Source: Rhodococcus sp. W8901
GTDB taxonomy: Bacteria; Actinomycetota; Actinomycetes; Mycobacteriales; Mycobacteriaceae
DNA length: 64,000 bases
Direction: 5' to 3'
Assembly: GCF_013348805.1 (NCBI RefSeq)
Contig: NZ_CP054690.1
Span: forward strand, 3,844,001 to 3,908,000
This document shows positions 150 through 45,750 of the stretch, piece by piece; the stretch's first letter is position 1, and each line of letters opens with the position of its first letter. The position numbers and the translations under genes are program-made. The notes below the pieces were generated by a model. That model was not told the DNA's origin, made no database searches, and saw only the letters and a program-made list of their open reading frames with translations.

Positions 150-150
150 G

Positions 151-170
151 ACCAGCACTAACTTGCTGGT
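151..170 (+). terminator. weak hairpin after the first gene
   Basis: A 7-bp perfect stem (ACCAGCA/TGCTGGT) with a 6-nt loop starts just after the TAG stop. There is no T-run, so termination is only a suggestion. Confidence 0.3.
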
Positions 171-243
171 GACGACATCGGCCTGTATGGCCAATACCAG
201 CCGCCGGAGACGTAGAACAACGAAAGACGCCCCACCCGTCGAC

Positions 244-269
244 TGAACTGACCCCCGGGAGTTGGACTG
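244..269 (+). repeat. IS left inverted repeat (IRL)
   Basis: This is the left terminal repeat. It matches the reverse complement of 1656-1681 at 23 of 26 positions. The mismatches are two adjacent bases after TGAACTG and one G/A difference after the C/G-rich core. Confidence 0.93.
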
Positions 270-299
270 AGAAATCAGTTCAGACTCCCGGGGGTCAGT
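247..299. repeat. perfect 16-bp inverted repeat upstream of the transposase
   Basis: ACTGACCCCCGGGAGT at 247-262 is exactly complementary to ACTCCCGGGGGTCAGT at 284-299, with a 21-nt loop. The left arm lies within IRL and the right arm ends four bases before the TTG start of OrfA. In RNA read in from outside, this GC-rich hairpin could hide the start or halt transcription, a known way for IS elements to limit impinging expression. That role here is inference. Confidence 0.75.
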
Positions 300-302
300 G
301 TT

Positions 303-794
303 TTGGATAGACGAAGTTCGCTGACGCAAGAGCAGCGCATCGCAGCAGTAGTGTTGTTCGAGAAAGGTGCGGCTTCGAGGGCCGTAGCGACGTCGTTGGA
401 GGTGCCCCGCGATCCGATTCGTAGGTTGCACCAGCGGTGGCGGGTCCGAGGCAGAGGAGTGCTGGTGTCGAAGAGGGCAACGCCTGCTGTGTATCCGTTC
501 GAACTGAAACTGGACCTTGTGCAGCGGTTCCTCGCGGGCGAGACACTCGCGGAGCTGGCGGAGGAAGGCGGGTTGTCTTCGCCTGTCCTGCTGCGTAGGT
601 GGGTTCGGGAGTATCGCGCTCACGGCGAAGATGCGTTGCGGCCGAAGCCGAAGGGGCGACCAGCCAAGAGCACGGTCACGGGCGAGGAGACGGAGCTGGA
701 CCGTCTTCGCCGTGAGGTCGAGTATCTCCGGGCGGAGAACGCGTACCTGGGAAAATTGCGGGCCTTGATGGAGGAGAAACGACGGACAAGGTGA
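303..794 (+). CDS. IS3-family transposase OrfA (helix-turn-helix)
   Basis: The 163-residue DNA-binding subunit has two predicted HTH segments (about residues 8-50 and 60-108) and a C-terminal leucine-rich coiled coil (about 130-157, containing ELDRLRREVEYL). This is the usual OrfA layout of IS3 elements, in which OrfA recognises the ends and can inhibit transposition. The start is TTG, with no better in-frame codon upstream before the element boundary. The stop overlaps the OrfB GTG as GTGA. A slippery GGGAAAA sits near the 3' end in the correct phase to divert ribosomes into OrfB. Confidence 0.93.
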   Translation: MDRRSSLTQEQRIAAVVLFEKGAASRAVATSLEVPRDPIRRLHQRWRVRGRGVLVSKRATPAVYPFELKLDLVQRFLAGETLAELAEEGGLSSPVLLRRWVREYRAHGEDALRPKPKGRPAKSTVTGEETELDRLRREVEYLRAENAYLGKLRALMEEKRRTR

Positions 795-817
795 ATGCCG
801 TCGTTGCCCTCAAGGCC
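749..817 (+). promoter_or_regulatory. programmed -1 frameshift site (GGGAAAA) with possible downstream stem
   Basis: In the OrfA frame bases 749-755 read G GGA AAA, a canonical X XXY YYZ slippery heptamer. A -1 slip continues directly in the OrfB frame, which is open across this point. Five bases after the heptamer, GGCCTTGA (761-768) is perfectly complementary to TCAAGGCC (810-817) and could form a stimulatory stem. The product would be an OrfAB fusion, the active transposase in IS3 elements. Confidence 0.8.
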
Positions 818-1633
818 GTCCATTCCCTCACCACGTTGCTGAAGATCGCCGGTCTTGCGCGGTCGACGTTCTTCTACCACCAAGCCAGGCTGTCCGAGCC
901 GGACAAGCACGCGGAGCTCAAGACCGCGATCCGGCAGATCTTCGACCGGCACGGCGGCCGCTACGGGCATCGCCGCATCCACCAGCGGCTGCGCCGCGAG
1001 GACTGGGTTCTGTCGAAGAAGACCGTCCTGAAGCTGATGAACACACTCGGGCTGCGTTGCGCGATCCGTCGCAAACGCTATGTCTCGTTCAAGGGCGAGC
1101 CCGGCAAGATCGCCCCGAACTTGTTGAGGCGCGACTTCACGACCACGGGGACGAACCAGAAGTGGGTCACCGACGTGACGGAGTTTCGTGTCGGCGAGCA
1201 GAAGGTCTACCTCTCGACGGTGATGGATCTGTTCGATCGGCAGATCATCGGTCACGCGCACGGAACTTCCCCGAATCTCGCGTTGACGAACACGTCGCTG
1301 CGCCGGGCGTTGAAGACCAGGCACCGAGGGCAGAAGCCGATTGTCCACTCCGATCAAGGATTCCAGTATCAGCATGTTTCCTGGCGGCGACTGCTGAAGG
1401 GGCGTGCGATCCAGTCGATGTCGCGCAAGGGCAACTGCCTCGACAACGCGGTCATGGAGAGCTTCTTCGGGCATTTGAAGGACGAGCTCTACTGCAACAC
1501 CACGTTCCTCACTGTCGACACTCTCACCGTCGCGATCGATGACTACATCGCATGGTTCAACACCGAACGAAGCCACTCAACGCTGAAGGGCCTGAGCCCG
1601 GTTGAATACCGGGCTCAGGCCCTTGCCGCATAG
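791..1633 (+). CDS. IS3-family transposase OrfB (DDE integrase)
   Basis: The 280-residue catalytic subunit contains an HTH_21-like region (about 45-100) followed by an rve integrase core. Catalytic residues are visible as D118 (WVTDVTEF), D178 (HSDQG) and E213 (MESFFGHLKDEL). The 35-residue spacing between the second Asp and the Glu is the DD(35)E signature of IS3. The GTG start overlaps the OrfA stop. OrfB is probably made mostly as part of a frameshifted OrfAB. The frame is intact to its TAG, 48 bp inside the right end. Confidence 0.96.
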   Translation: MNAVVALKAVHSLTTLLKIAGLARSTFFYHQARLSEPDKHAELKTAIRQIFDRHGGRYGHRRIHQRLRREDWVLSKKTVLKLMNTLGLRCAIRRKRYVSFKGEPGKIAPNLLRRDFTTTGTNQKWVTDVTEFRVGEQKVYLSTVMDLFDRQIIGHAHGTSPNLALTNTSLRRALKTRHRGQKPIVHSDQGFQYQHVSWRRLLKGRAIQSMSRKGNCLDNAVMESFFGHLKDELYCNTTFLTVDTLTVAIDDYIAWFNTERSHSTLKGLSPVEYRAQALAA

Positions 1634-1655
1634 CCCCGTTACGATCTCACTTGGC

Positions 1656-1681
1656 CAGTCCAACTTCCGGGGAGCAGTTCA
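1656..1681 (-). repeat. IS right inverted repeat (IRR)
   Basis: This is the reverse complement of IRL with three mismatches. It ends in CA and is followed immediately by the GAC target copy. Confidence 0.93.
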
Positions 1682-1865
1682 GACATATGACGAGGTGGGG
1701 CGCCTTTCATTTCAGCCGGCGTCTCCCCGCCGCCGCACGAAACGGCTGTCTTGCGTCAAGAATCTGGCATGATTACAGCCGCCCGCAACTGCGTCTCCGG
1801 CCGTTCGTGTGCCGGCTCGAATCCCAACAGAATCGCGGTGTCAGCGACCAGAGTGGAAGCAAACA

Positions 1866-2519
1866 ATGCACAACACCTCGCACGTGCTCGACGCGATTCG
1901 CTTAGCACGCGACGGATTCTGCGTGACGCGGAGCGAGTTTCCTGAGGACCTGCGCGCCGCGCTTATCGCAGACGCGGGCCGACACACTTTCACGACACCT
2001 CACGCTCACGTCGGTGGCGCCTTCGCCATGACCTCACTCGAACACCAGGACCGCGCGCCGGGCCGAGCGAGCGGATGGATCGGCGACGCTGCGAGCGCTG
2101 CAGGCCTCGGCGCCTTCGCTCCGAACGAGGCGAGCTACCAACGCTACCTACCAGGCGGCAACGGGATTCCACCCCATCGCGACCAGCGTTACTACGCGTC
2201 GTACATCGCGATCATCACCCTGCAGGGCACCGCTACGTTCGCGATCCATGCGTCCCGCAATCACAGAGATGTCGTCGAGCAGTGGACCACCCAACCCGGC
2301 GAGGTGATATTCCTGCGGGGTTGGCAACCCGGACAGCCCCACGACCCTCGGCCCTACCACCGAATCGACCCACCAGTCGACGTGCCGCGCCTGATGTTCC
2401 AACTCCGCCACAACCTCGCCGCGAGCACTCCCCCATCCCCGCTCCTCGCCGAGCTCACCGACACGGAAGTGCTGCAAGCAGCTGAACTCGCCGCTACCCG
2501 GCCCGCTCAACGAACATGA
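1866..2519 (+). CDS. AlkB-like 2-oxoglutarate/Fe(II)-dependent oxygenase
   Basis: The 217-residue protein carries an Fe(II) facial triad consistent with HxD...H: H104 and D106 in PPHRDQRYY, and H155 in PYHRIDPP. Arg165 or Arg171 (PRLMFQLRH) is placed to bind 2-oxoglutarate. The Y-x-x-G-x-x-I-x-x-H-R-D context resembles AlkB/2OG-FeII_Oxy_2 proteins, which hydroxylate alkylated nucleic acids or small molecules; the substrate here is unknown. ATG at 1866 has a GGAAG 5-7 nt upstream and is preferred over an in-frame start 57 bp earlier. It stands alone between an insertion sequence and an endonuclease relic, so it is probably accessory. Confidence 0.72.
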   Translation: MHNTSHVLDAIRLARDGFCVTRSEFPEDLRAALIADAGRHTFTTPHAHVGGAFAMTSLEHQDRAPGRASGWIGDAASAAGLGAFAPNEASYQRYLPGGNGIPPHRDQRYYASYIAIITLQGTATFAIHASRNHRDVVEQWTTQPGEVIFLRGWQPGQPHDPRPYHRIDPPVDVPRLMFQLRHNLAASTPPSPLLAELTDTEVLQAAELAATRPAQRT

Positions 2520-2774
2520 CGTCCGCCGTAGAGGTCTCGACCGCGGTCAATTGCGGCTGATGTTGCCGATGATTCGGCCCACCGGTCGTGGATGCCCGGC
2601 GGTGGCCGCATTCGACGTGTGCACTTCTGCGACCAATCCGCTGGCTCCGGACGTCTGTTCGCGCACCTTCTCTACCGTTGCCGACCACGTCCGGCTACCG
2701 GTGGCCAGGTGCTGGGCTGGGTGCTAATCGAACGCCGGAACCCTGCCGGAAAGTCTGACGCAGGAGATAACCAT
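2520..2774. other. 255-bp stretch without a recognisable gene
   Basis: Short open frames exist on both strands, but none has a ribosome site, family resemblance or codon pattern like the neighbours. It sits just upstream of a truncated endonuclease gene and probably represents the junction where the 5' part of that gene was lost. I see no inverted repeat pair or tRNA. Confidence 0.5.
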
Positions 2775-3473
2775 TGACTCTCGGCACTCACCAAACCGAG
2801 GAATCCGGTCGACGACTCGGCGTCCACCCGCACTCCCGGACAACGCCGCGCCGAAGCATTCACCGACATCCTGCGCCACTACCTCAACTCCGGCGACGCC
2901 CCCGTCGAAGGCGGCGAACGGCCGCACCTGTCACTACACGTGAACGCACGCGACCTCGCCCGCACCGAGCCGAACACTGACGACCACGCCGACACAGGAA
3001 GCAGCACGCCCACCGATCACGCGGACACGTTGGGAGACAAGGACGTCGCCTGGATGCCGTGGATGGGGCCGCTCACCATCGCAACCGCCCGCCGCATCGC
3101 CTGCGACTGCGACCTCACCCCGATCGTCATGAAGGACGGGGTACCACTCGACCTCGGCCGCACCACCCGCACCGTCTCGAAGAAACAACGCCGAGCCCTC
3201 GTCGCCCGCGACAACGGCTGCGCCTTCCCCGGCTGCGGCGCACCACCCGCCCACTGCAAAGGCCACCACGTCAAACACTGGGCCGACGGCGGACCCACCG
3301 ACCTCGACAACCTCGTACTCCTGTGCCACTACCACCACCGACTACTCCACCACTCGCACTGGCAAGTCGAGATCGGCCCCGACCGCCACCCGTGGTTCAC
3401 ACCACCGAGTTCGGTCGACCCCTACAAGAAGCCCATCCCGGCACACAACCGGGCCGGACCACGCGCAGCATAG
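2775..3473 (+). pseudogene. 5'-truncated DUF222/HNH endonuclease (13E12-repeat family)
   Basis: From the in-frame TGA at 2775 to the TAG, the frame encodes the C-terminal half of a DUF222-HNH protein. TRTPGQRRAEAF, typical of the DUF222-to-HNH linker, is followed by an intact HNH motif (GHHVKHWADGGPTDLDNLV, then CHYHHRLLH). Full-length members are usually about 400-500 residues with an N-terminal DUF222 domain, which is missing here. A GTG at 2940 could give a 177-residue HNH remnant, but homology clearly begins earlier, so this is called a relic. These multicopy genes are common recombination points in actinobacteria. Confidence 0.82.
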
Positions 3474-3513
3474 GCGCATGTTTCCCGAGAGCCGTCCGTC
3501 AGGCGCGGAAGGT

Positions 3514-3948
3514 CTACTCCCGCGTGATCGACAGCGTCACCTTCGTGCCCGCCTTGAGCGTGCGGCCGACGGTGCAGACCTTGTCGACCGAACGCTCGAC
3601 GAGTGCGATGAGGCGTTCCTGTGCCTCCGCGTCGAGTTCGCTGAGGTCGAGTTCGAGAACCTCGTCGAGCTGCGGGTAGACCTCGTTCTCGCGGTCCGCG
3701 GCACCGGAAACCCGGATGGTCGCGTCGTAGTCGTCACCCAGTCGGCGGGAGAGCGGGAAGTCGGAGCTCATCCCGGAACAGGCCGCGAGCGCGATCTTCA
3801 GCAGCTCACCGGGGGTGAAGACCCCGTCCACGGATTCCGATCCGATGCGCACCTCGGCCCCGCGGGAACTGCGTCCCGTGTAGAGGCGGGTACCGGTGCG
3901 CTCCACCCACAGTTCGGTGGGCGCGGGGGCAGGAGTCTGTTCAGCCAT
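3514..3948 (-). CDS. OsmC family protein (peroxiredoxin-like)
   Basis: The 144-residue OsmC/Ohr-fold protein has the two family cysteines, C57 in LAACSGM and C125 in KVCTVGRTL. In characterised members these reduce organic hydroperoxides. It resembles the OsmC branch more than Ohr; the substrate is not determined by sequence. The chosen ATG lies inside the 3' end of the upstream symporter gene (8-nt overlap), so the two are probably translationally coupled. An in-frame start further upstream would lengthen it by 34 residues unlike the family. Confidence 0.85.
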   Translation of the reverse strand: MAEQTPAPAPTELWVERTGTRLYTGRSSRGAEVRIGSESVDGVFTPGELLKIALAACSGMSSDFPLSRRLGDDYDATIRVSGAADRENEVYPQLDEVLELDLSELDAEAQERLIALVERSVDKVCTVGRTLKAGTKVTLSITRE

Positions 3949-5383
3949 GAGTGGAGATCCTGCCATCCGCCGGGGCCTCGTCCCACACCTGGATGCCCGA
4001 GATCTCGGGCAGATCGTCACGCTGGAAGGATGGATCCTTGCCGGCCGCACGCTGACTGGTGTAGTGCTTGAAGAGCAGGAACGCGATGCCCGAGAGCGGC
4101 AGCAGCGCCGCGAGATTGACGGTCGCCATCACGCCCATGACCAGATCGGCCAGCCCCCACACGAGCGGCAGCGAACCGATGGCGCCGGCGAACACGCACA
4201 CGACGACCAGTGCGCGGAAGCCGTTGAGCACGCGCCGGGACCCGGTGAGGAACTCGATGTTGGTCTCGCCGTAGTAGTAGTTGCCGATCACCGAGGTGAA
4301 CGCGAGGAAGAAGATCGCGACGGTGAGGAAGTGCACGGTCCAGCCGCCGAGCTGCGCGCTGAGGGCGTTCTGGGTCAGCGACGCACCCGCCCTGGTGCCG
4401 TACTCGGGATTCGACAGCAGGATGATGAACGCCGTCGCCGTGCACACCAGCAGCGTGTCGAAGTACACGCCGAGACTCTGAACCAGTCCCTGCTTGACCG
4501 GGTGCGACACCGCCGCGGTGGCGCCCGCGTTCGGCGCCGAGCCCATGCCCGCCTCGTTCGAGAACAGGCCACGACGGATGCCGTTCATGAAGGCTGCCGC
4601 GAACCCGCCACTGACCACCTCGCTGATGCCGAACGCGTTCTCGACGATGAGCCGGATCATCCCGGGCACCTCGGTGATGTTGAGCGCGACGACGACGAGC
4701 GCGAGCACCAGGTACCCGCCCGCCACCACCGGCACCACCACCTGCGAGACCGACGAGATCCGGCGCACGCCGCCGAAGATCACCGCCGCGGTGAGCGCGG
4801 CGACGACGAGTCCGACGGCCACCGCGATGCCGCGGCCGTCCGAGTCGAGCGAGGTCGACACCGCGTCGACGATCGAGTTGGTCTGCACCGCGTTGAAGAC
4901 GAAGCCGTAGGTCACGGTGATCACGACCGCGAAGATGACACCCATCCATCGGCGGCGAAGTCCGTGCAGCATGTAGTAGGCCGGTCCGCCGTGGAACCCG
5001 CCGTCCTCGTCGCGGACCTTGTAGACCTGTGCGAGCGTCGACTCGATGAATGCGCTCGCGGCGCCGATAATCGCCATCACCCACATCCAGAACACCGCGC
5101 CGGGCCCACCGACGCTGATCGCAATCGCGACGCCGGCGATGTTTCCCGTCCCCACGCGGGACGCCGCGGAGATCGAGAAGGCGCGGAACGCCGAGATTCC
5201 CTTGCGCCCGTCGGGAAGCGTCTCAGCGGGTTCCGCCACCGACCGCAACATGTCCGGCAGCAGCCGCACCTGGACGAATCGGGAGCGAACGGTGAAGTAC
5301 AGCCCCAACCCGACGAGCAGCGCGATGACGACGTACCAGTACGTGTCGTTGATGTCGGTGACGACGTCCACAAGAGAGTCCAC
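3941..5383 (-). CDS. alanine/glycine:cation symporter (AGCS family)
   Basis: The 480-residue inner-membrane protein has about ten hydrophobic segments and the AGCS landmarks SAASRVGTGNIAGVA (about 71-85) and GLFSNEAGMGSAPNAGA (about 270-286), which bind Na+ and substrate in the family. It is predicted to import alanine or glycine with sodium or protons. The annotated GTG is very close to its AGGA; a second GTG at 5371 has GGAG at a better distance and may be the true start. It overlaps the downstream osmC gene and begins 57 bp after kdpE, so read-through from kdp is possible. Confidence 0.9.
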   Translation of the reverse strand: MDSLVDVVTDINDTYWYVVIALLVGLGLYFTVRSRFVQVRLLPDMLRSVAEPAETLPDGRKGISAFRAFSISAASRVGTGNIAGVAIAISVGGPGAVFWMWVMAIIGAASAFIESTLAQVYKVRDEDGGFHGGPAYYMLHGLRRRWMGVIFAVVITVTYGFVFNAVQTNSIVDAVSTSLDSDGRGIAVAVGLVVAALTAAVIFGGVRRISSVSQVVVPVVAGGYLVLALVVVALNITEVPGMIRLIVENAFGISEVVSGGFAAAFMNGIRRGLFSNEAGMGSAPNAGATAAVSHPVKQGLVQSLGVYFDTLLVCTATAFIILLSNPEYGTRAGASLTQNALSAQLGGWTVHFLTVAIFFLAFTSVIGNYYYGETNIEFLTGSRRVLNGFRALVVVCVFAGAIGSLPLVWGLADLVMGVMATVNLAALLPLSGIAFLLFKHYTSQRAAGKDPSFQRDDLPEISGIQVWDEAPADGRISTHG

Positions 5384-5440
5384 TCCTGGGACTATGAAGG
5401 ACGACCGTCCCCGACGCCAGTCCGAAACCGACCGGTAGCG

Positions 5441-6121
5441 CTACTCCTGGAACCGGTATCCCATCCCGGTCTCGGTGAGCAGATGCCGCGGCTTGGACGG
5501 GTCCACCTCAAGTTTGCGCCGCAACTGGGCAAGGTAAACCCGCAGGTAGTGGGTCTCGGTGGCGTACGCCGGACCCCACACCTCACGGAGCAACTCCTTC
5601 TGCCCCACGAGCTTGCCCTTGTTGCGGACGAGCATCTCGAGCATCCCCCATTCGGTGGGCGTCAAGTGCACCTCGGCCCCATCTCGCGTGACTTTCTTCG
5701 CTGCCAGGTCCACCGTGAACGAGTCGGTGACGACCACCGGCTCGCTGGTCTCCGCCGCTGCCGCACCACGCCGGACCGCGGCCCGCAGACGGGCGAGGAA
5801 CTCGTCCATTCCGAACGGCTTGGTGACGTAGTCGTCGGCGCCGGCGTCGAGGGCCTCCACCTTGTCCGACGAGTCGGTCCGGGCCGACAACACGATGACC
5901 GGCGCCGTACACCAGCCCCGCAGTCCGGCGAGGACCTCGATGCCGTCCATGTCGGGCAGGCCGAGATCGAGCACCACCACCTCCGGGTGCCGCTCTGCCG
6001 CCGCCCGCAGGGCAGCCGCGCCGGTCGAGGCTGTCGTGACCTCGTAGCCGCGCACACTGAGGTTGATCCGCAGTGCGCGCAGAATCTGTGGTTCGTCGTC
6101 GACCACCAGTACCCGCGTCAT
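5441..6121 (-). CDS. kdpE: KdpE response regulator
   Basis: The 226-residue OmpR/PhoB-type regulator has an N-terminal receiver (acidic pocket D8/D9, phospho-acceptor D52 in VLDLGLPDMDG, VTKPFG lysine near 102) and a C-terminal winged-helix DNA-binding domain (about 128-225). It receives phosphate from KdpD and activates the kdp operon when potassium is scarce. Its ATG overlaps the kdpD stop as ATGA, making co-translation likely. The identity rests on both sequence and position. Confidence 0.96.
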   Translation of the reverse strand: MTRVLVVDDEPQILRALRINLSVRGYEVTTASTGAAALRAAAERHPEVVVLDLGLPDMDGIEVLAGLRGWCTAPVIVLSARTDSSDKVEALDAGADDYVTKPFGMDEFLARLRAAVRRGAAAAETSEPVVVTDSFTVDLAAKKVTRDGAEVHLTPTEWGMLEMLVRNKGKLVGQKELLREVWGPAYATETHYLRVYLAQLRRKLEVDPSKPRHLLTETGMGYRFQE

Positions 6122-8727
6122 CGAACGCCTCCCCCTTCATCGGCCGACTCCACCGAGTCTCCCGAGTCTGCCGCCAGTTCGACCACCATGGTCAGGCCGC
6201 CGCCCGGCGTGTCCGTCACACCGACCGTGCCCCCCATCGCCTCCACGAATCCCTTGACCACCGACAAACCGAGCCCCACTCCTATCGTGTTGTCCCGATC
6301 GCCCAACCGCTGGAAGGCGTCGAACACCTGATCCTCGGTGCCGCGTGCCAGGCCGGGCCCCGTGTCGGCGACGGTGATCGTCATCCGGTCCCCCACTCGG
6401 GCCGCACCGATCCGGACGGGTTCGTCGGGTGCATAGCGCAACGCGTTGTCGACGAGGTTCGCCAGGACTCGCTCGAGCAGGCCGGCGTCGGCCATCACCA
6501 CGGCGTCCCCCACCTCGACCTTCACCTGGTCCCGTACACGTCGCGCCGAGGCTGGCCCGCCGAACCCGGCGCCGACGAGGGCCCGGTGAACCACCTCTTC
6601 GAGGTACACCCGCCGCAGCGTCGGCTTCACCACGCCGGCCGCGAGCCGCGACGAGTCGAGCAGGTTGCCGACGAGCGCGGTGAGCTGATCCGTCGACTCC
6701 TCGACGGTGGCCAACAGTTCGGCGGTGTCCTCGGGCGAGAACTCGATGTCGTCGCTGCGCAGGCTCGACACCGCCGCCTTCACTGCGGCGAGCGGGGTGC
6801 GCAGGTCGTGGCTGACTGCCGACAGGAGCGAGCGGCGCAGCCGATCGGCCTCCGCGAGGGCGTTCGCCTGGCTGGCCTCCTCCGCGAGCTGCCGCTGCCG
6901 GATCAGGCCGACAGCCTGGTTGGCCACGGCACCGAGCACCTTGCGGTCCCGGGCGCCGAGTTCACCGCCCGCGAGCAGCAGGGTGTACTCGCCGTCGCCC
7001 GCCTCGCACGCCGTTCCGGCCTCGTCGACGGTGCCCGGCGCCGACGTGCCCGCCGAGCTGATGACGCCCTCACCGCGCCGGATGACGCTGACACCGGTCT
7101 GCGAATAGGTTTCCCGCACCTTCTCGAGAAGCGCCGGAAGATCCGCGCCGCGCAGCACCGACCCCGCGAACAGTGCCAGCAGCTCGGCCTCCTGCGAGGC
7201 CCGACGCGCCTCCCGGGCGCGCTTGGCGGCGGCGTCGACCAGCACCGCGACGGCGACCGCCACCACCAGGAGCACGATCGTGGTGATGAAGTTGTCGGGC
7301 TGCGCGATCGTGAAGCTGTAGAGCGGTGCGGTGAAGAAGTAGTTGAGCAACAGCCCCGAGATGAGGGCCGACAGGATCGCCGGCCCCACACCGCCGAGCA
7401 GCGCCACCGCCAGCACGACGACGAAGAACAGCGCGTTCTGCCCGCCGACACCGGCCACCCTGTCGATCACAGCCATGAGCACGGCCGCGAGCGACGGCAC
7501 GACGACGGCGGCCAGCCACGACATCAGCCTCCGTTCACCGCGACCCAGGATCGAGATGCGGTGTCGGGTCGCGGCCTCGTCGTGCGTGACCATGTGGACG
7601 TCGATCTTCCCGGACTGCTGGACGATCGACGCACCGATGCCCTCGTCGAGGATGCGGGCCCACCGGGAGCGCCGGGAGGTCCCGATCACCAACTGGGTCG
7701 CGTTGACCTCGCGGGCGAACTCGAGCAGCGTCGTGGGGACGTCGTCGCCGACGACGCTGTGCAGGCTCGCTCCGATGCTCCCCGCCAGTTTGCGGACCCT
7801 GCCCATCTCGGCTGCGGCGACGCCCTCGAGGCCGTCGCCGCGCACGACGTGCACGACCATCAGCTCGGCGCTGGCCTTGTTCGCGATGCGGCTCGCCCGC
7901 CGGACCAGGGTCTCCGATTCGGGGCCGCCGGTGACCGCCACGACCACCCGCTCGCGGGCCTCCCACGTGTCGGTGATCTTGTTCTCGGCACGGTACTTCG
8001 CGAGCGCGGCATCCACCTGGTCGGCCACCCACAGCAGCGCGAGTTCACGCAGGGCCGTGAGGTTTCCGCGCCGGAAGTAGTTCCCCAGCGCCGCATCCAC
8101 CTTCTCCGCGGAGTAGACGTTTCCGTGAGAGAGCCTGCGTCGCAACGCTTCCGGCGTGATGTCCACGAGCTCGACCTGGGTGGCGGCACGCACCACCTCG
8201 TCGGGGACGGTCTCCTGCTGCACCACGCCGGTGATCTGCTGGACGACGTCGTTGAGGCTCTCGAGGTGCTGGACGTTGAGTGTCGAGAGCACATCGATGC
8301 CGGCGTCGAGCAACTCGTAGACGTCCTGCCAGCGCTTCTCGTTGCGGCTGCCCGGGGTGTTGGTGTGCGCGAGCTCGTCGACCAGGACCACCGCCGGGCG
8401 CCGGGCCAGCACGGCCTCGACGTCCAGTTCCGGCATCGCGGTGCCCCGATACTCGATGTACTTGGGTTCGATGACCTCGAGACCTGAGAGCTGCTCGGCG
8501 GTACGGGCGCGGCCGTGGGTTTCCACCACGGCCGCGACCACGTCTCCGCCGCGCTCGCGGCGTCGGTGCGCCTCGCCGAGCATCGCGTAGGTCTTGCCGA
8601 CACCCGGCGCCGCACCGAGGTAGATCCTCAGCTCGCCTCGGCGACGACTTCGCTGCTCACCGAGGGGCGGCGCACCGGGCTTCTCGGAACTGCTCACACC
8701 GCCATCATTCACCCGAGGACGCCGCAC
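6118..8727 (-). CDS. kdpD: KdpD potassium-responsive sensor histidine kinase
   Basis: The 869-residue membrane kinase has an N-terminal KdpD domain with Walker A (GAAPGVGKTYAML, about 38-50), a universal-stress-like domain, four closely spaced transmembrane helices (about 390-490), a GAF-like segment, a HisKA box (SHDLRTPLAAVK) and an HATPase with NLVDNALRYAP and GxGLGLS motifs. It phosphorylates or dephosphorylates KdpE in response to potassium. The GTG start at 8727 overlaps kdpC by 23 nt; a GTG at 8697 just past the kdpC stop is equally plausible. Confidence 0.95.
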   Translation of the reverse strand: MRRPRVNDGGVSSSEKPGAPPLGEQRSRRRGELRIYLGAAPGVGKTYAMLGEAHRRRERGGDVVAAVVETHGRARTAEQLSGLEVIEPKYIEYRGTAMPELDVEAVLARRPAVVLVDELAHTNTPGSRNEKRWQDVYELLDAGIDVLSTLNVQHLESLNDVVQQITGVVQQETVPDEVVRAATQVELVDITPEALRRRLSHGNVYSAEKVDAALGNYFRRGNLTALRELALLWVADQVDAALAKYRAENKITDTWEARERVVVAVTGGPESETLVRRASRIANKASAELMVVHVVRGDGLEGVAAAEMGRVRKLAGSIGASLHSVVGDDVPTTLLEFAREVNATQLVIGTSRRSRWARILDEGIGASIVQQSGKIDVHMVTHDEAATRHRISILGRGERRLMSWLAAVVVPSLAAVLMAVIDRVAGVGGQNALFFVVVLAVALLGGVGPAILSALISGLLLNYFFTAPLYSFTIAQPDNFITTIVLLVVAVAVAVLVDAAAKRAREARRASQEAELLALFAGSVLRGADLPALLEKVRETYSQTGVSVIRRGEGVISSAGTSAPGTVDEAGTACEAGDGEYTLLLAGGELGARDRKVLGAVANQAVGLIRQRQLAEEASQANALAEADRLRRSLLSAVSHDLRTPLAAVKAAVSSLRSDDIEFSPEDTAELLATVEESTDQLTALVGNLLDSSRLAAGVVKPTLRRVYLEEVVHRALVGAGFGGPASARRVRDQVKVEVGDAVVMADAGLLERVLANLVDNALRYAPDEPVRIGAARVGDRMTITVADTGPGLARGTEDQVFDAFQRLGDRDNTIGVGLGLSVVKGFVEAMGGTVGVTDTPGGGLTMVVELAADSGDSVESADEGGGVR

Positions 8728-14269: not shown

Positions 14270-15742
14270 ATGGCCCGCACCTCGCGCGATGTACACCTGC
14301 ATCTCGAACTCGCGCCGGCCGGCGAACCTCTGCGCCGGCGCGTCGCCGCCGCGATCGTGGAGGCCGTGCGCACGGGCGCCCTCGGCCCGGGAGACGTCCT
14401 CCCCGCCTCACGGTCCCTGGCCGCCGATCTCGGGATCTCACGGACGGTGGTCGTCGACGCCTACGACGAGTTGGCGGCCGCGGGCTACGTGGTCACCCGG
14501 GCCGGGTCCGATACCCGGATCGCTCCCGGCGCCGACGCCGCGGCCCGTGCCGGCGTCGGTTCGCACGTCGCGCCGACCGTCCTTCCCGACGAGAATGCGC
14601 CGAACGACCACCGGGACAACACGATCGATCTCTCCCCCGGATACCCCGACACCGGCCTCATCTCGGACCGGGACTGGCGCAGCGCGTGGCGCGGCGTGAC
14701 CTCCGCACCCGTCCCCCACCGCGTTCCGGGGCCGGACGAACACCTGCTTCTGCGCGAGGCGCTCGCGGTGCACCTGCGTCGGACCCGCGGGATCGCCGTT
14801 CGTCCGGACGAACTCGTGATCGTGCCGGGAGTGCTGTCGGCACTTCGCGCCCTCGCCGCGGCCCGCGGACTGTCCGGCCGTCATCTCGCATTCGAGGAAC
14901 CCGGATACTCGAGGGCGCGACACACCCTCGAATCCGCGGGCGCGCTCGTCCGCCCGGTCCCGGTCGACCACGACGGCCTGGACCCGGCGCTGATCCGGCA
15001 GACCGACGCTGCGGTGTACTGCACACCGGCACACCAGTATCCGATCGGTGCACGGATGCCGGCCGCACGCCGCGCACGACTCGTCTCCGATGCACTCACC
15101 GCGGATCGCCTCCTGATCGAGGACGACTACGACGGCGAATTCCGATACGGCGTTTCGACACTGCCGGCGCTGCGGTCGATCGACGGGGGCCACGACTGCG
15201 TGGCGTACGTCGGTACCGCATCGAAGATCCTGTCCCCCGCCCTACGGCTCGCGTGGCTCGTCCCGCCGAGACCGATGCTGACCGCGGTCCGCCAGGCGCT
15301 GCAGATCAGCGGGGAATCCGCCTCCACGATCACCTCCGCCGCTCTCGCACGGTTCATCGAATCCGGCTCGCTCAGCAGGCATCTGGCCCGTGCCGCGCGA
15401 ACCTACTCGGCCCGCAGACGGTCGTTCGTCGACAGCCTGCGCAGACACCTGCCCGACGTCGAGCCGAGCGGCGTCGAGGCAGGATTGCACGTGGCGCTGC
15501 GCCTGCCCGACGGGGTCGACGATGCCGCGATCGCGGCGGAACTGGAACGACGGGGAGTGACGGTTCGGGGGCTGGGGGCGTATCGGATACGCGACGACGG
15601 CCCGCGCGGACTGTTGTGCGGCTACGCGCGGTTGCCCGAATCGCGGGCCGATGCCGCGGCGAGGGTGATCGCCGATGTCATCCGCGAATCGACCGGGGCC
15701 GCGGCCGGCACTTGGGACAGCTGCACGACGAACGGTTCGTGA
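14270..15742 (+). CDS. MocR-family (GntR-aminotransferase) transcriptional regulator
   Basis: The 490-residue regulator has an N-terminal GntR winged helix (about 12-80; LPASRSLAADLGISRTVV) fused to a fold-type-I aminotransferase-like domain. The PLP-binding lysine is visible in GTASKILSP (near 319) and the substrate-phosphate region in DYDGEFRYG. PdxR-like members sense pyridoxal phosphate; the effector here is not known. The last about 19 residues ([18 protein letters not shown]) are encoded by an antisense copy of the fpg 3' end, so the C-terminus appears to have been replaced or extended by recombination. Confidence 0.9.
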   Translation: MARTSRDVHLHLELAPAGEPLRRRVAAAIVEAVRTGALGPGDVLPASRSLAADLGISRTVVVDAYDELAAAGYVVTRAGSDTRIAPGADAAARAGVGSHVAPTVLPDENAPNDHRDNTIDLSPGYPDTGLISDRDWRSAWRGVTSAPVPHRVPGPDEHLLLREALAVHLRRTRGIAVRPDELVIVPGVLSALRALAAARGLSGRHLAFEEPGYSRARHTLESAGALVRPVPVDHDGLDPALIRQTDAAVYCTPAHQYPIGARMPAARRARLVSDALTADRLLIEDDYDGEFRYGVSTLPALRSIDGGHDCVAYVGTASKILSPALRLAWLVPPRPMLTAVRQALQISGESASTITSAALARFIESGSLSRHLARAARTYSARRRSFVDSLRRHLPDVEPSGVEAGLHVALRLPDGVDDAAIAAELERRGVTVRGLGAYRIRDDGPRGLLCGYARLPESRADAAARVIADVIRESTGAAAGTWDSCTTNGS

Positions 15743-15744
15743 AC
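15678..15744. repeat. 67-bp duplicate of the fpg 3' end (copy A)
   Basis: This aligns without gaps to 16257-16323 with about nine differences. On the minus strand it encodes an intact second version of the Fpg zinc-finger tail, FTNRSSCSCPKCRPRPRSIRG followed by TGA, against [21 protein letters not shown] in the real gene. It forms the end of the MocR gene on the plus strand. Confidence 0.9.
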
Positions 15745-15798
15745 CTGCCCTGGTCGTACAGGTAGTCGCGTGCTCCCAGCGCATGCGTCCGCACTGCC

Positions 15799-16260
15799 CT
15801 ACTCGGAGTCGAGTCCACTTGCCGGGGCCCGCACGACAATCGGCCGGGACGGTGTGCCCGCCTCCGTCATCGGCTCCCGAAGTCCGAGCCGCTCTTCCTC
15901 GGCAGCAGACTCGGTCACGGCGGATATCGCCTGTTGCAGCCGAAGGAAATCCGCCCATCCACCGTCGCACTCGATCGAGGGCAGCCCGAAGCTCTCCGCT
16001 CGTCGCGCCCAGGTCAAATGCACCTCGGTGAAGCGTTCGGGATCCTCCACGTGCTGGCAGAGAACGTCGTCGAAGGCGACGTCGTGCGCTACTACCTCAA
16101 CCGCCACCCCGAACAACGGATGCTCGGCTGACACTTCTACAGCGACTTCCTCTGCGATCCCCGAGTGCGACATGTCGCATTCTTCACTGGGCCGGGCAGT
16201 GGCGCACCAGCCTTCGGGCAATGCGGAGAGCTGTGACTCGGTCAGGGGCATGCGCTTCAT
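15799..16260 (-). CDS. hypothetical protein downstream of fpg
   Basis: The 153-residue acidic protein has no family I recognise. It has no signal peptide or membrane segment; visible features are scattered Cys/Trp/His residues ([39 protein letters not shown]). The ATG overlaps the fpg stop as ATGA, so it is probably translated after fpg; a methionine three codons later is an alternative start. It is the only gene lying between the two 67-bp fpg-tail copies and may have arrived as a cassette. Confidence 0.6.
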
Positions 16261-16323
16261 CCGCGAACGAGGCGGGGCCGCGGCTGGCACTTGGGACAGC
16301 TGTACGACGAGCGGTTCATGAAC
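16257..16323. repeat. 67-bp fpg 3' end (copy B, in the functional gene)
   Basis: This is the partner of the repeat at 15678-15744, in the same orientation, so the pair is a direct repeat. It contains the last 21 codons and stop of the intact fpg and the first bases of the overlapping hypothetical gene. Confidence 0.9.
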
Positions 16324-17123
16324 TTCTCGCGCCGGATGGGCGCACCGCATCGCCGGCACGGCAGATTCTCCTGCCCGTATGCGGCGAGCGAGCGGTCGAA
16401 GTAGCCGGACTGCCCGTTCACGTTGACGTACAACGCGTCGAACGACGTGCCGCCCTGTGCGAGCGCCTCGGTCATGACGGATTCGACCGCCTCGAGGAGG
16501 CTGCGCAGTCGCGGTCCACTGATCTTGTCCGTCGGGCGATTGCCGTGAATTTCGGCGCGCCACAGGGCCTCGTCGGCGTAGATGTTCCCCACTCCCGACA
16601 CGACCGTCTGGTCGAGCAGGGCCCGCTTGATCTCGGTGTGCTTGCCCCGCAACACCTTCACGACCCGGTCGGGGTCGAATCGCGGATCCAGTGGGTCGCG
16701 GGCGATGTGCGCCACCGAATCCGGTAGTTCCGTGCCGTCGACCGTGACGAGATCGGCGAGCGCCCACCCACCGAATGTGCGCTGATCGACGAAGCGCAGG
16801 TCGGTTCCCGACGCGAGCCGGGCCCGGATCCGCAGGTGCTTCTCGTCGGCGGCCGAGGGTTCCTGCACGAGCATCTGGCCGCTCATCCCGAGGTGGACGA
16901 CCAGCGCGACGTTGCTCGGCTCGAGGATCAGCCAGAGATACTTGCCGCGACGCTCAGCGGCGGCGATGGTCTCGCCCTCGATCCGACGGGCCATGTCGAT
17001 CGAACCGGGCAGGTGCCGACGGACCGCACGGGGATGCAGCACGTCGACCCTGTCGACGGTGTGGCCGACGACGTGAGCCTCGAGGCCACGTCGGACGACC
17101 TCGACCTCGGGAAGTTCGGGCAC
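16257..17123 (-). CDS. fpg: formamidopyrimidine-DNA glycosylase
   Basis: The 288-residue base-excision repair enzyme removes 8-oxoguanine and formamidopyrimidines and nicks the DNA. The GTG start gives the invariant N-terminus [13 protein letters not shown], with Pro2 and Glu3 catalytic. H2TH-region and zinc-finger cysteines (CRRCGAP ... CPKC) are present at the C-terminus. An in-frame extension beyond this start reaches into rnc and is not used by the family. It lies 25 bp after rnc, in the same order as in mycobacteria. Confidence 0.96.
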
Positions 17124-45287: not shown

Positions 45288-45293
45288 GCTTTG

Positions 45294-45366
45294 TAGCCCC
45301 GACGGGATTCGAACCCGCGCTACCGCCTTGAGAGGGCGGCGTCCTAGGCCGCTAGACGACGGGGCC
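45294..45366 (-). tRNA. tRNA-Glu (CTC), copy 1
   Basis: The 73-nt cloverleaf on the minus strand has acceptor GGCCCCG/CGGGGCT with a G-U end pair, anticodon loop CTCTCAA flanked by CCGCC/GGCGG, and T-arm GCGGGTTCGAATCCCGT. CCA is not encoded. It is identical to the copy at 45459. Confidence 0.97.
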
Positions 45367-45458
45367 AGGAACTTCGTTCTTTACATGCTGTACACCAGGA
45401 TAAATGCTCTCACCGAAAGAGAATTCCCTGATCCAGGATCGGAGAGTGCTTCCCTTGG

Positions 45459-45531
45459 TAGCCCCGACGGGATTCGAACCCGCGCTACCGCCTTGAGAGG
45501 GCGGCGTCCTAGGCCGCTAGACGACGGGGCC
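45459..45531 (-). tRNA. tRNA-Glu (CTC), copy 2
   Basis: This has the same 73-nt sequence as the first copy, 92 bp upstream in the direction of transcription. The spacer between them is unrelated to the tRNA. Confidence 0.97.
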
Positions 45532-45678
45532 AGAACATTTTCAAGGTGTGTCGCCGCATGCGTGCGACACGATGGAACGCTTCCAATTTCAATCCGACCC
45601 TTTCGGATCCGATCTGCGATGGAAGCTCGGCCAGCTGAACTAACCGGAGTTCGGAGTGAAATTCACTCGAACTCTCCG

Positions 45679-45750
45679 CTGGGGTACCAGGACTCGAACC
45701 TAGAATGGCGGTACCAGAAACCGCTGTGTTGCCAATTACACCATACCCCA
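45679..45750 (-). tRNA. tRNA-Gln (CTG)
   Basis: The 72-nt cloverleaf has acceptor TGGGGTA/TACCCCA, anticodon loop TTCTGGT within GCGGT/ACCGC, and T-arm CTAGGTTCGAGTCCTGG with G73. Together with the two tRNA-Glu genes it forms a minus-strand array downstream of gltX. Confidence 0.97.

Follow-up and report, generated by a model that had tools for sequence, protein, structure and literature searches.

A small gene of apparent foreign origin lies between duplicated fpg 3′ ends at the fpg–mocR overlap of Rhodococcus sp. W8901

We found that in Rhodococcus sp. W8901 (labelled G000 here) a gene of 153 codons lies between two copies of the 3′ end of fpg, at a place where fpg and the convergent gene mocR overlap on opposite strands in related genomes. 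The gene appears to have been acquired horizontally. As to how it entered, we give slightly better than an even chance to the explanation that a donor piece consisting of an fpg tail joined to the gene came in by homology at one end, with no dedicated integrase. The stretch analysed, called the window here, is 64,000 nucleotides long, and the features of the locus within it are as follows.

14270..15742, plus strand: mocR, a GntR/aminotransferase regulator (PdxR-like), convergent to fpg (NCBIfam NF052282, 353 bits; Pfam GntR and Aminotran_1_2)
15678..15744: outer repeat copy, the putative old fpg tail (minus strand), now the final codons and stop of mocR (plus strand)
15745..15798, minus strand: non-coding stretch 3′ of the inserted gene, compared by eye with G003 and R. 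tukisamuensis
15799..16260, minus strand: inserted gene, 153 aa, its start ATG overlapping the fpg stop TGA
16257..16323, minus strand: inner repeat copy, the present Fpg end (RLVRG, then stop)
16257..17123, minus strand: fpg (mutM), DNA-formamidopyrimidine glycosylase (NCBIfam NF002211, 331 bits; TIGR00577, 307 bits)

The two copies of the 67-nt direct repeat are identical at 58/67 positions with a spacing of 579 nt (E = 9e-15 when 448 kb of the G000 chromosome is compared with itself), and a whole-genome search of G000 at E ≤ 0.001 placed the repeat sequence at these two positions alone. The repeat holds the final 21 codons and stop of fpg, and an Fpg tail is readable in frame from both copies, with five residue differences between the outer and the inner reading; in G000 the inner copy is the end of Fpg and the outer copy the end of MocR. 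The encoded Fpg, for which we chose the GTG before PELPEVEV as the start, belongs to Fpg/MutM and has three Pfam domains above cut-off, namely Fapy_DNA_glyco (N-terminal glycosylase), H2TH and zf-FPG_IleRS. A single credible gene lies between the repeats. An initial annotation of this DNA had reported the 67-bp repeat, its content and reading frame, the double use of the outer copy as the coding end of mocR, and the sole intervening gene with its overlapping ATG. Its observation is confirmed on each of these points, and its interpretation, that the gene had inserted at the end of fpg in the manner of site-specific integration, regenerating the fpg tail and rewriting the MocR C terminus, is partly supported. 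Scans of the region for Rfam families, promoters and terminators returned nothing. By eye, an apparent 8-nt inverted end surrounds the inserted gene (AGCGCATG / CATGCGCT). Elsewhere in the window, three tRNA genes (Glu, Glu, Gln) are grouped at 45293-45750, with no connection to the fpg–mocR finding.

The arrangement without the extra gene is common among the 14 Prescottella genomes compared (G000 and G001-G013). In eight of them (G002, G004, G005, G007, G008, G009, G010 and G012) fpg and mocR have no gene between them and their tails overlap, the mocR stop lying 65 nt inside fpg in seven of these empty alleles and 56 nt inside in G012. The allele with one tail and no additional gene that the initial annotation had expected in relatives is thus present in 8/14 genomes, and the repeat length in G000 equals the mocR–fpg overlap plus 2 nt. 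The gene stands directly behind fpg in 4/14 genomes (G000, G003, G006 and, in two frames, G001), and the other two, G011 and G013, carry other sequence after fpg. Altogether fpg is paired with mocR in 12/14 genomes, and the site holds one cargo or none. Because mocR already ends inside fpg in 8/8 empty alleles, the MocR tail of G000 is evidently an ancestral antisense overlap and not a rewritten end. The proposal that the insertion had rewritten the MocR C terminus is therefore rejected for G000, the eight empty alleles having a MocR tail of the same kind. Among the occupied genomes G000 alone keeps the MocR tail of the overlap. It is altered in G001, G003 and G006, in which inspection by eye showed no more than short stretches that might be left over from an outer tail (in G001 and G006, adjoining mocR).

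We compared the inner and outer copies with the corresponding tails of other genomes. The closest genome to G000 is G002 (93.7% in the upstream block), which has an empty allele, and the last 23 nt of the outer copy are identical to those of G002, the next best match being 19/23 among 95 fpg loci (80 of them chosen from among the matches listed). The expectation of a regenerated tail is borne out to the extent that the outer copy has the 3′ end of the empty sister G002. The last 23 nt of the inner copy match 22/23 in occupied G003, 22/23 in empty G009 and 18/23 in the outer copy, the two 3′ ends in G000 differing at five neighbouring sites; the inner end has the form usual for Prescottella, and the end shared by the outer copy and G002 (GGTCGAT) is the odd one. 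The three substitutions private to the outer copy (positions 6, 21 and 39) are all silent in MocR and all replacements in Fpg, and they may in part have come from the donor instead of arising later. We read the outer end as native and maintained for MocR, and the inner end as likely to have arrived with the inserted gene. Being equally close to empty G009 and occupied G003, the inner end is no proof of an incoming tail, and we dropped it as a mark of occupied genomes.

The inserted gene encodes an acidic protein of 153 aa (pI 4.5) that reached the cut-off of no Pfam or NCBIfam family and gave no PHROGs or PADLOC hit at E ≤ 1; a profile of its protein family had no match among PDB sequences. 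A search for relatives of the inserted gene found matches in 14/401 genomes of the taxonomic family at E ≤ 0.01, of which five were strong (G000, G001, G003, G006 and G090) and nine were weak (E 3.5e-4 to 0.008) and taken as chance. In a draw of genomes from the order, the profile matched 5 of 396 other genomes, one of them strongly (E 6e-9), and in a draw from the phylum it matched 0/395 other genomes. By these profile searches the protein falls in an uncatalogued family, and distant members in other genomes of the order have in common the stretches E..E....H.L, a DDVL-like one and VHLT. One relative is found behind a phage integrase and one near an IS110 transposase (both identified by Pfam), one near a transposase named by eye and one beside a DUF1877 gene. 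Such surroundings hint that the inserted protein may have an accessory or immunity-like role. The distant relative in G428 (L195 3023-6791) forms the C-terminal portion of a longer protein, encoded behind a phage-type integrase and two further ORFs.

Comparisons of the gene with its neighbours indicate that it is horizontally mobile, occurring in two separate Prescottella lineages and at another locus in R. tukisamuensis. In the tree of the upstream block, G000 groups with empty G002 (100/100) and G001 with G003 and G006 (100/100); empty G008 joins G000 and G002 (98/97), further empty genomes fall between the two occupied lineages, and the occupied state requires at least two changes. Based on about 110 synonymous sites, the dS of the inserted gene is 0.45 between G003 and G006 (fpg, 0.16), 0.40 between G000 and R. 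tukisamuensis (fpg, 0.82) and 0.45 between G000 and G003 (fpg, 0.54), the last being not lower than fpg predicts. Nucleotide identity between G000 and G003 is 86.7% for the inserted gene and 68.2% for mocR. R. tukisamuensis (L046), which belongs to another genus, has the gene at 91% protein identity and away from fpg, adjoining 58 nt left over from a gene that is present in G033. The R. tukisamuensis copy and the dS contrasts bear out the insertion proposed in the initial annotation, in that the gene was acquired horizontally. The stretch at 15745..15798 probably travelled along with it, since this stretch is partly common to G003 and R. tukisamuensis (GGACGCA..GCGC..AGCAC...ACTAC.TGTACGACC, aligned by eye; MAFFT aligns it poorly). 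There is no support for G001, G003 or G006 as a recent source of the gene, because DNA identity to these is only 85.0-87.1%, and searches of plasmids, phages and viral contigs gave no match to the gene. Its GC content of 64.7%, against a window mean of 68.1%, is weak evidence, since 14.8% of windows are equally low. The G001 copy behind fpg is frameshifted (L023 around 4600), and the gene can therefore decay after arrival.

A second duplicated tail was found in another genus. When we searched 401 genomes of the taxonomic family with the fpg tail, G044 gave a pair of matches on a single contig, separated by 1.8 kb. There 135 nt of the fpg tail are duplicated at 94% identity around a histidine kinase gene, whose last residues are encoded by the outer copy in a different frame (L077 5207-6835). 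This is a different cargo between fpg tails, of the kind that the initial annotation had suggested looking for. The congener G014 is empty, having a Dyp peroxidase gene after fpg. The end of the G014 tail (RPRPKR, then stop) and the bases that follow match the outer copy of G044, the gene beyond that copy is as in G014, and the inner copy of G044 ends in RPRR and stop. The two G044 copies are identical over about 95 nt before their ends and differ further upstream; because three of the upstream differences are private to the inner copy, the split into native and foreign sequence is not clean. Other matches to the histidine kinase in G044 and G014 are paralogues of 41-52% identity, none of them at the fpg of G014.

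Among 95 fpg loci (14 from Prescottella, that of G044 and 80 chosen among the matches listed), a search of each locus with its own tail found a duplicated tail in two, G000 and G044. The tail search had matched 193/401 family genomes, and tails unlike those of Prescottella are under-represented in the 95-locus sample; downstream DNA was covered for 4.3-5.2 kb at the Prescottella loci and for 3.4 kb at L106. The next best own-tail matches (L137 and L146; E of about 2e-5) span 25-39 nt and do not touch the tail end, and a 29-nt match at the tail end in L082 has an E of 0.03. Second matches to the 67-nt sequence in G007, G010 and G338 are short and lie elsewhere. Searches of phages (18 records) and plasmids (11) with the tail gave weak matches (E 0.04 to 0.5), none of them covering 80% of the tail, and viral contigs had 0 matches to a single exact pattern in which several codon choices are fixed; with weak partial matches only, the tail was rejected as a phage or plasmid attachment site.

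In the explanation that we favour, the incoming DNA would have been a chromosome fragment of a relative in which the fpg tail was joined to the small gene. Ordinary homologous recombination would have acted between the tail of the fragment and the fpg tail already in place, and the other end of the fragment, having no homology, would have been joined illegitimately. This could have happened by direct joining, that is, by homology-facilitated illegitimate recombination (HFIR), or the fragment could first have been circularised and then have entered by a single crossover in the tail. Either route can leave the cargo between two 3′ ends of the anchor gene with the native end outside. Retention of both copies would have been favoured, since fpg and mocR both survive an insertion into their antisense overlap only when that overlap is duplicated. 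The cargo would now be the gene behind fpg, probably translated by coupling to fpg. We infer this mechanism from the structure as it appears in the sequences. Consistent with it are the empty alleles in 8/14 genomes, a repeat that equals the overlap plus 2 nt, the identity of the outer end with G002, the three outer-private substitutions (all silent in MocR and replacements in Fpg), the second case in G044 and a history of the gene unlike that of its neighbours. The fpg tail occurs twice, and the DNA beyond it is not duplicated. The outside end appears native in both cases, as judged by G002 for G000 and by G014 for G044; the inner end differs from G014 in G044 and is genus-common in G000. We found no donor with both the exact inner tail and the G000 allele of the gene. 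A Ku gene, whose product serves end joining, is present in G000.

According to the available sections of a study in E. coli, re-ligation closed linear DNA into circles, which then entered through a single crossover that depended on RecA; PCR on 56/60 clones gave a product diagnostic of a partly duplicated homologous gene end, and duplications of the anchor-gene 3′ end measured 109-950 bp in 14 sequenced clones (PMC3240628). As described there, both routes use homology at one end only, as is proposed for fpg, and place the cargo beside the anchor gene, as here; after the circle route the anchor-gene 3′ end is partly duplicated, as at fpg. The same sections state that HFIR products in transformable species usually carry deletions and not duplications (PMC3240628), which counts against an HFIR reading of the present duplication. 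That work concerned a selected plasmid in E. coli, whereas the fpg case is a natural one with a single gene, and here the 67-nt duplication equals an antisense gene overlap. HFIR is also proposed for stacked gene insertions in Vibrio (PMC5361080) and discussed for E. coli diversity (PMC2884548), in the parts of those papers at hand.

The insertion might be older than the favoured explanation of entry by homology at one end supposes. Insertion with tail duplication would then have preceded the split of G000 and G002, or occurred earlier still, and G002 would have lost the gene by recombination between the repeats, retaining after the loss the GGTCGAT end that the outer copy had taken on; in a deep form of this history, the outer tail would also have eroded in G001, G003 and G006. 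It accords with the genus-common inner end and the odd end of the outer copy and G002, with the short tail-like remnants seen by eye beside mocR in G001 and G006, and with a G000–G003 dS of the gene near that of fpg. Against it, the shallow form requires one additional loss and the deep form several, as empty G008 groups with G000 and G002 (98/97) and other empty genomes fall between the occupied lineages. Also against it are a mocR divergence between G000 and G003 far above that of the gene (68.2 against 86.7% identity) and a gene dS between G003 and G006 almost three times that of fpg. We regard an older insertion as somewhat unlikely. Alternatively, duplication of the tail could have arisen within G000 by slippage or aberrant tandem duplication, independently of the arrival of the gene. 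The adjacency of the two copies, and the identity of the G044 copies over about 95 nt, would suit such a rearrangement, but a duplication after the separation from G002 predicts tails of the same type, and those of G000 have 3′ ends that differ at five neighbouring sites; moreover, the gene between the copies is itself apparently foreign. We consider this very improbable.

Site-specific integration, to which the initial annotation likened the locus, would involve a small non-autonomous element with an attachment site in the fpg tail, an integrase acting in trans and regeneration of the fpg end. This account fits the regeneration of a gene end whose native copy lies outside, the position of the gene immediately after the fpg stop in each of two Prescottella lineages and the different cargo in G044, and the G000 chromosome has an integrase-like case at the 5′ end of lepA (84-nt repeat; genes named by eye). 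Direct repeats that restore the target gene, one hallmark of integrative elements, are present at 67 nt in G000 and 135 nt in G044, whereas another, a constant attachment core, is missing from these two cases, in which the repeats start 67 and 140 nt before the fpg end. Neither insert, the 153-aa gene of G000 or the histidine kinase gene of G044, contains a recombinase gene, the R. tukisamuensis gene is not at fpg, and the tail is duplicated in only 2/95 fpg loci (80 from among the matches listed). Integration of this kind thus went unsupported, and we think it distinctly unlikely. Integrative elements reportedly occur at the 3′ ends of genes such as trmE (PMC8409611), and they share with the fpg case a position at the end of a housekeeping gene; the fpg case is unlike them in having no integrase in the insert and a variable repeat length, and we found no circulating element that bears the tail.

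Other known arrangements resemble the locus in part. Minimal mobile elements, as defined in the accessible text of one report, have conserved flanks around different whole-gene cassettes and no mobility gene (PMC3082526). Similarly, at fpg–mocR a whole gene is present or absent between conserved genes with no mobility gene, but the site holds one cargo or none instead of different cassettes, and one flank is duplicated. In the T6SS effector–immunity modules of Vibrio, as far as the available sections describe them, genes are added behind a conserved upstream anchor and the older 3′ part is displaced outward, as here; unlike those modules, fpg–mocR has no secretion system (PMC5361080). We infer that the displaced fpg tail was retained because mocR reads the same DNA on the opposite strand. 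Among the titles and abstract openings listed in a literature search, there was no report of fpg tails as insertion points.

If our favoured explanation is right, the locus would be a natural example, seen at the level of single bases, of a foreign gene sitting between overlapping genes with neither broken, the overlap having been duplicated and each copy then maintained by a different gene. This would provide a searchable signature, a native outer end with an outer copy evolving under the opposite-strand gene only, which could serve as a genome-wide measure of gene entry without mobile elements. That single-gene cassettes dock repeatedly at the fpg 3′ end in this actinobacterial family is a long shot. 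Were it so, cassettes would move with an attached fpg tail that served as a portable homology arm, without an integrase of their own, and the conserved zinc-finger coding sequence would be a general entry site.

A local direct-repeat scan of 448 kb of G000 (at least 40 nt, 80% identity, spacing 150-8000) returned eight pairs, of which we inspected three (fpg, lepA and a 44-nt pair); fpg was the only one of these at a gene 3′ end. In the lepA pair, the first codons of lepA (named by eye) are duplicated over 84 nt at 89% identity and 4.6 kb apart (L181 13373-13456 and 17933-18016; G000:C1:3673373-3678016). An apparent tyrosine recombinase C terminus lies beside the intact lepA copy and an IS110-like transposase lies between the copies, both by eye, and the arrangement resembles an insertion made by an integrase at the start of a gene.
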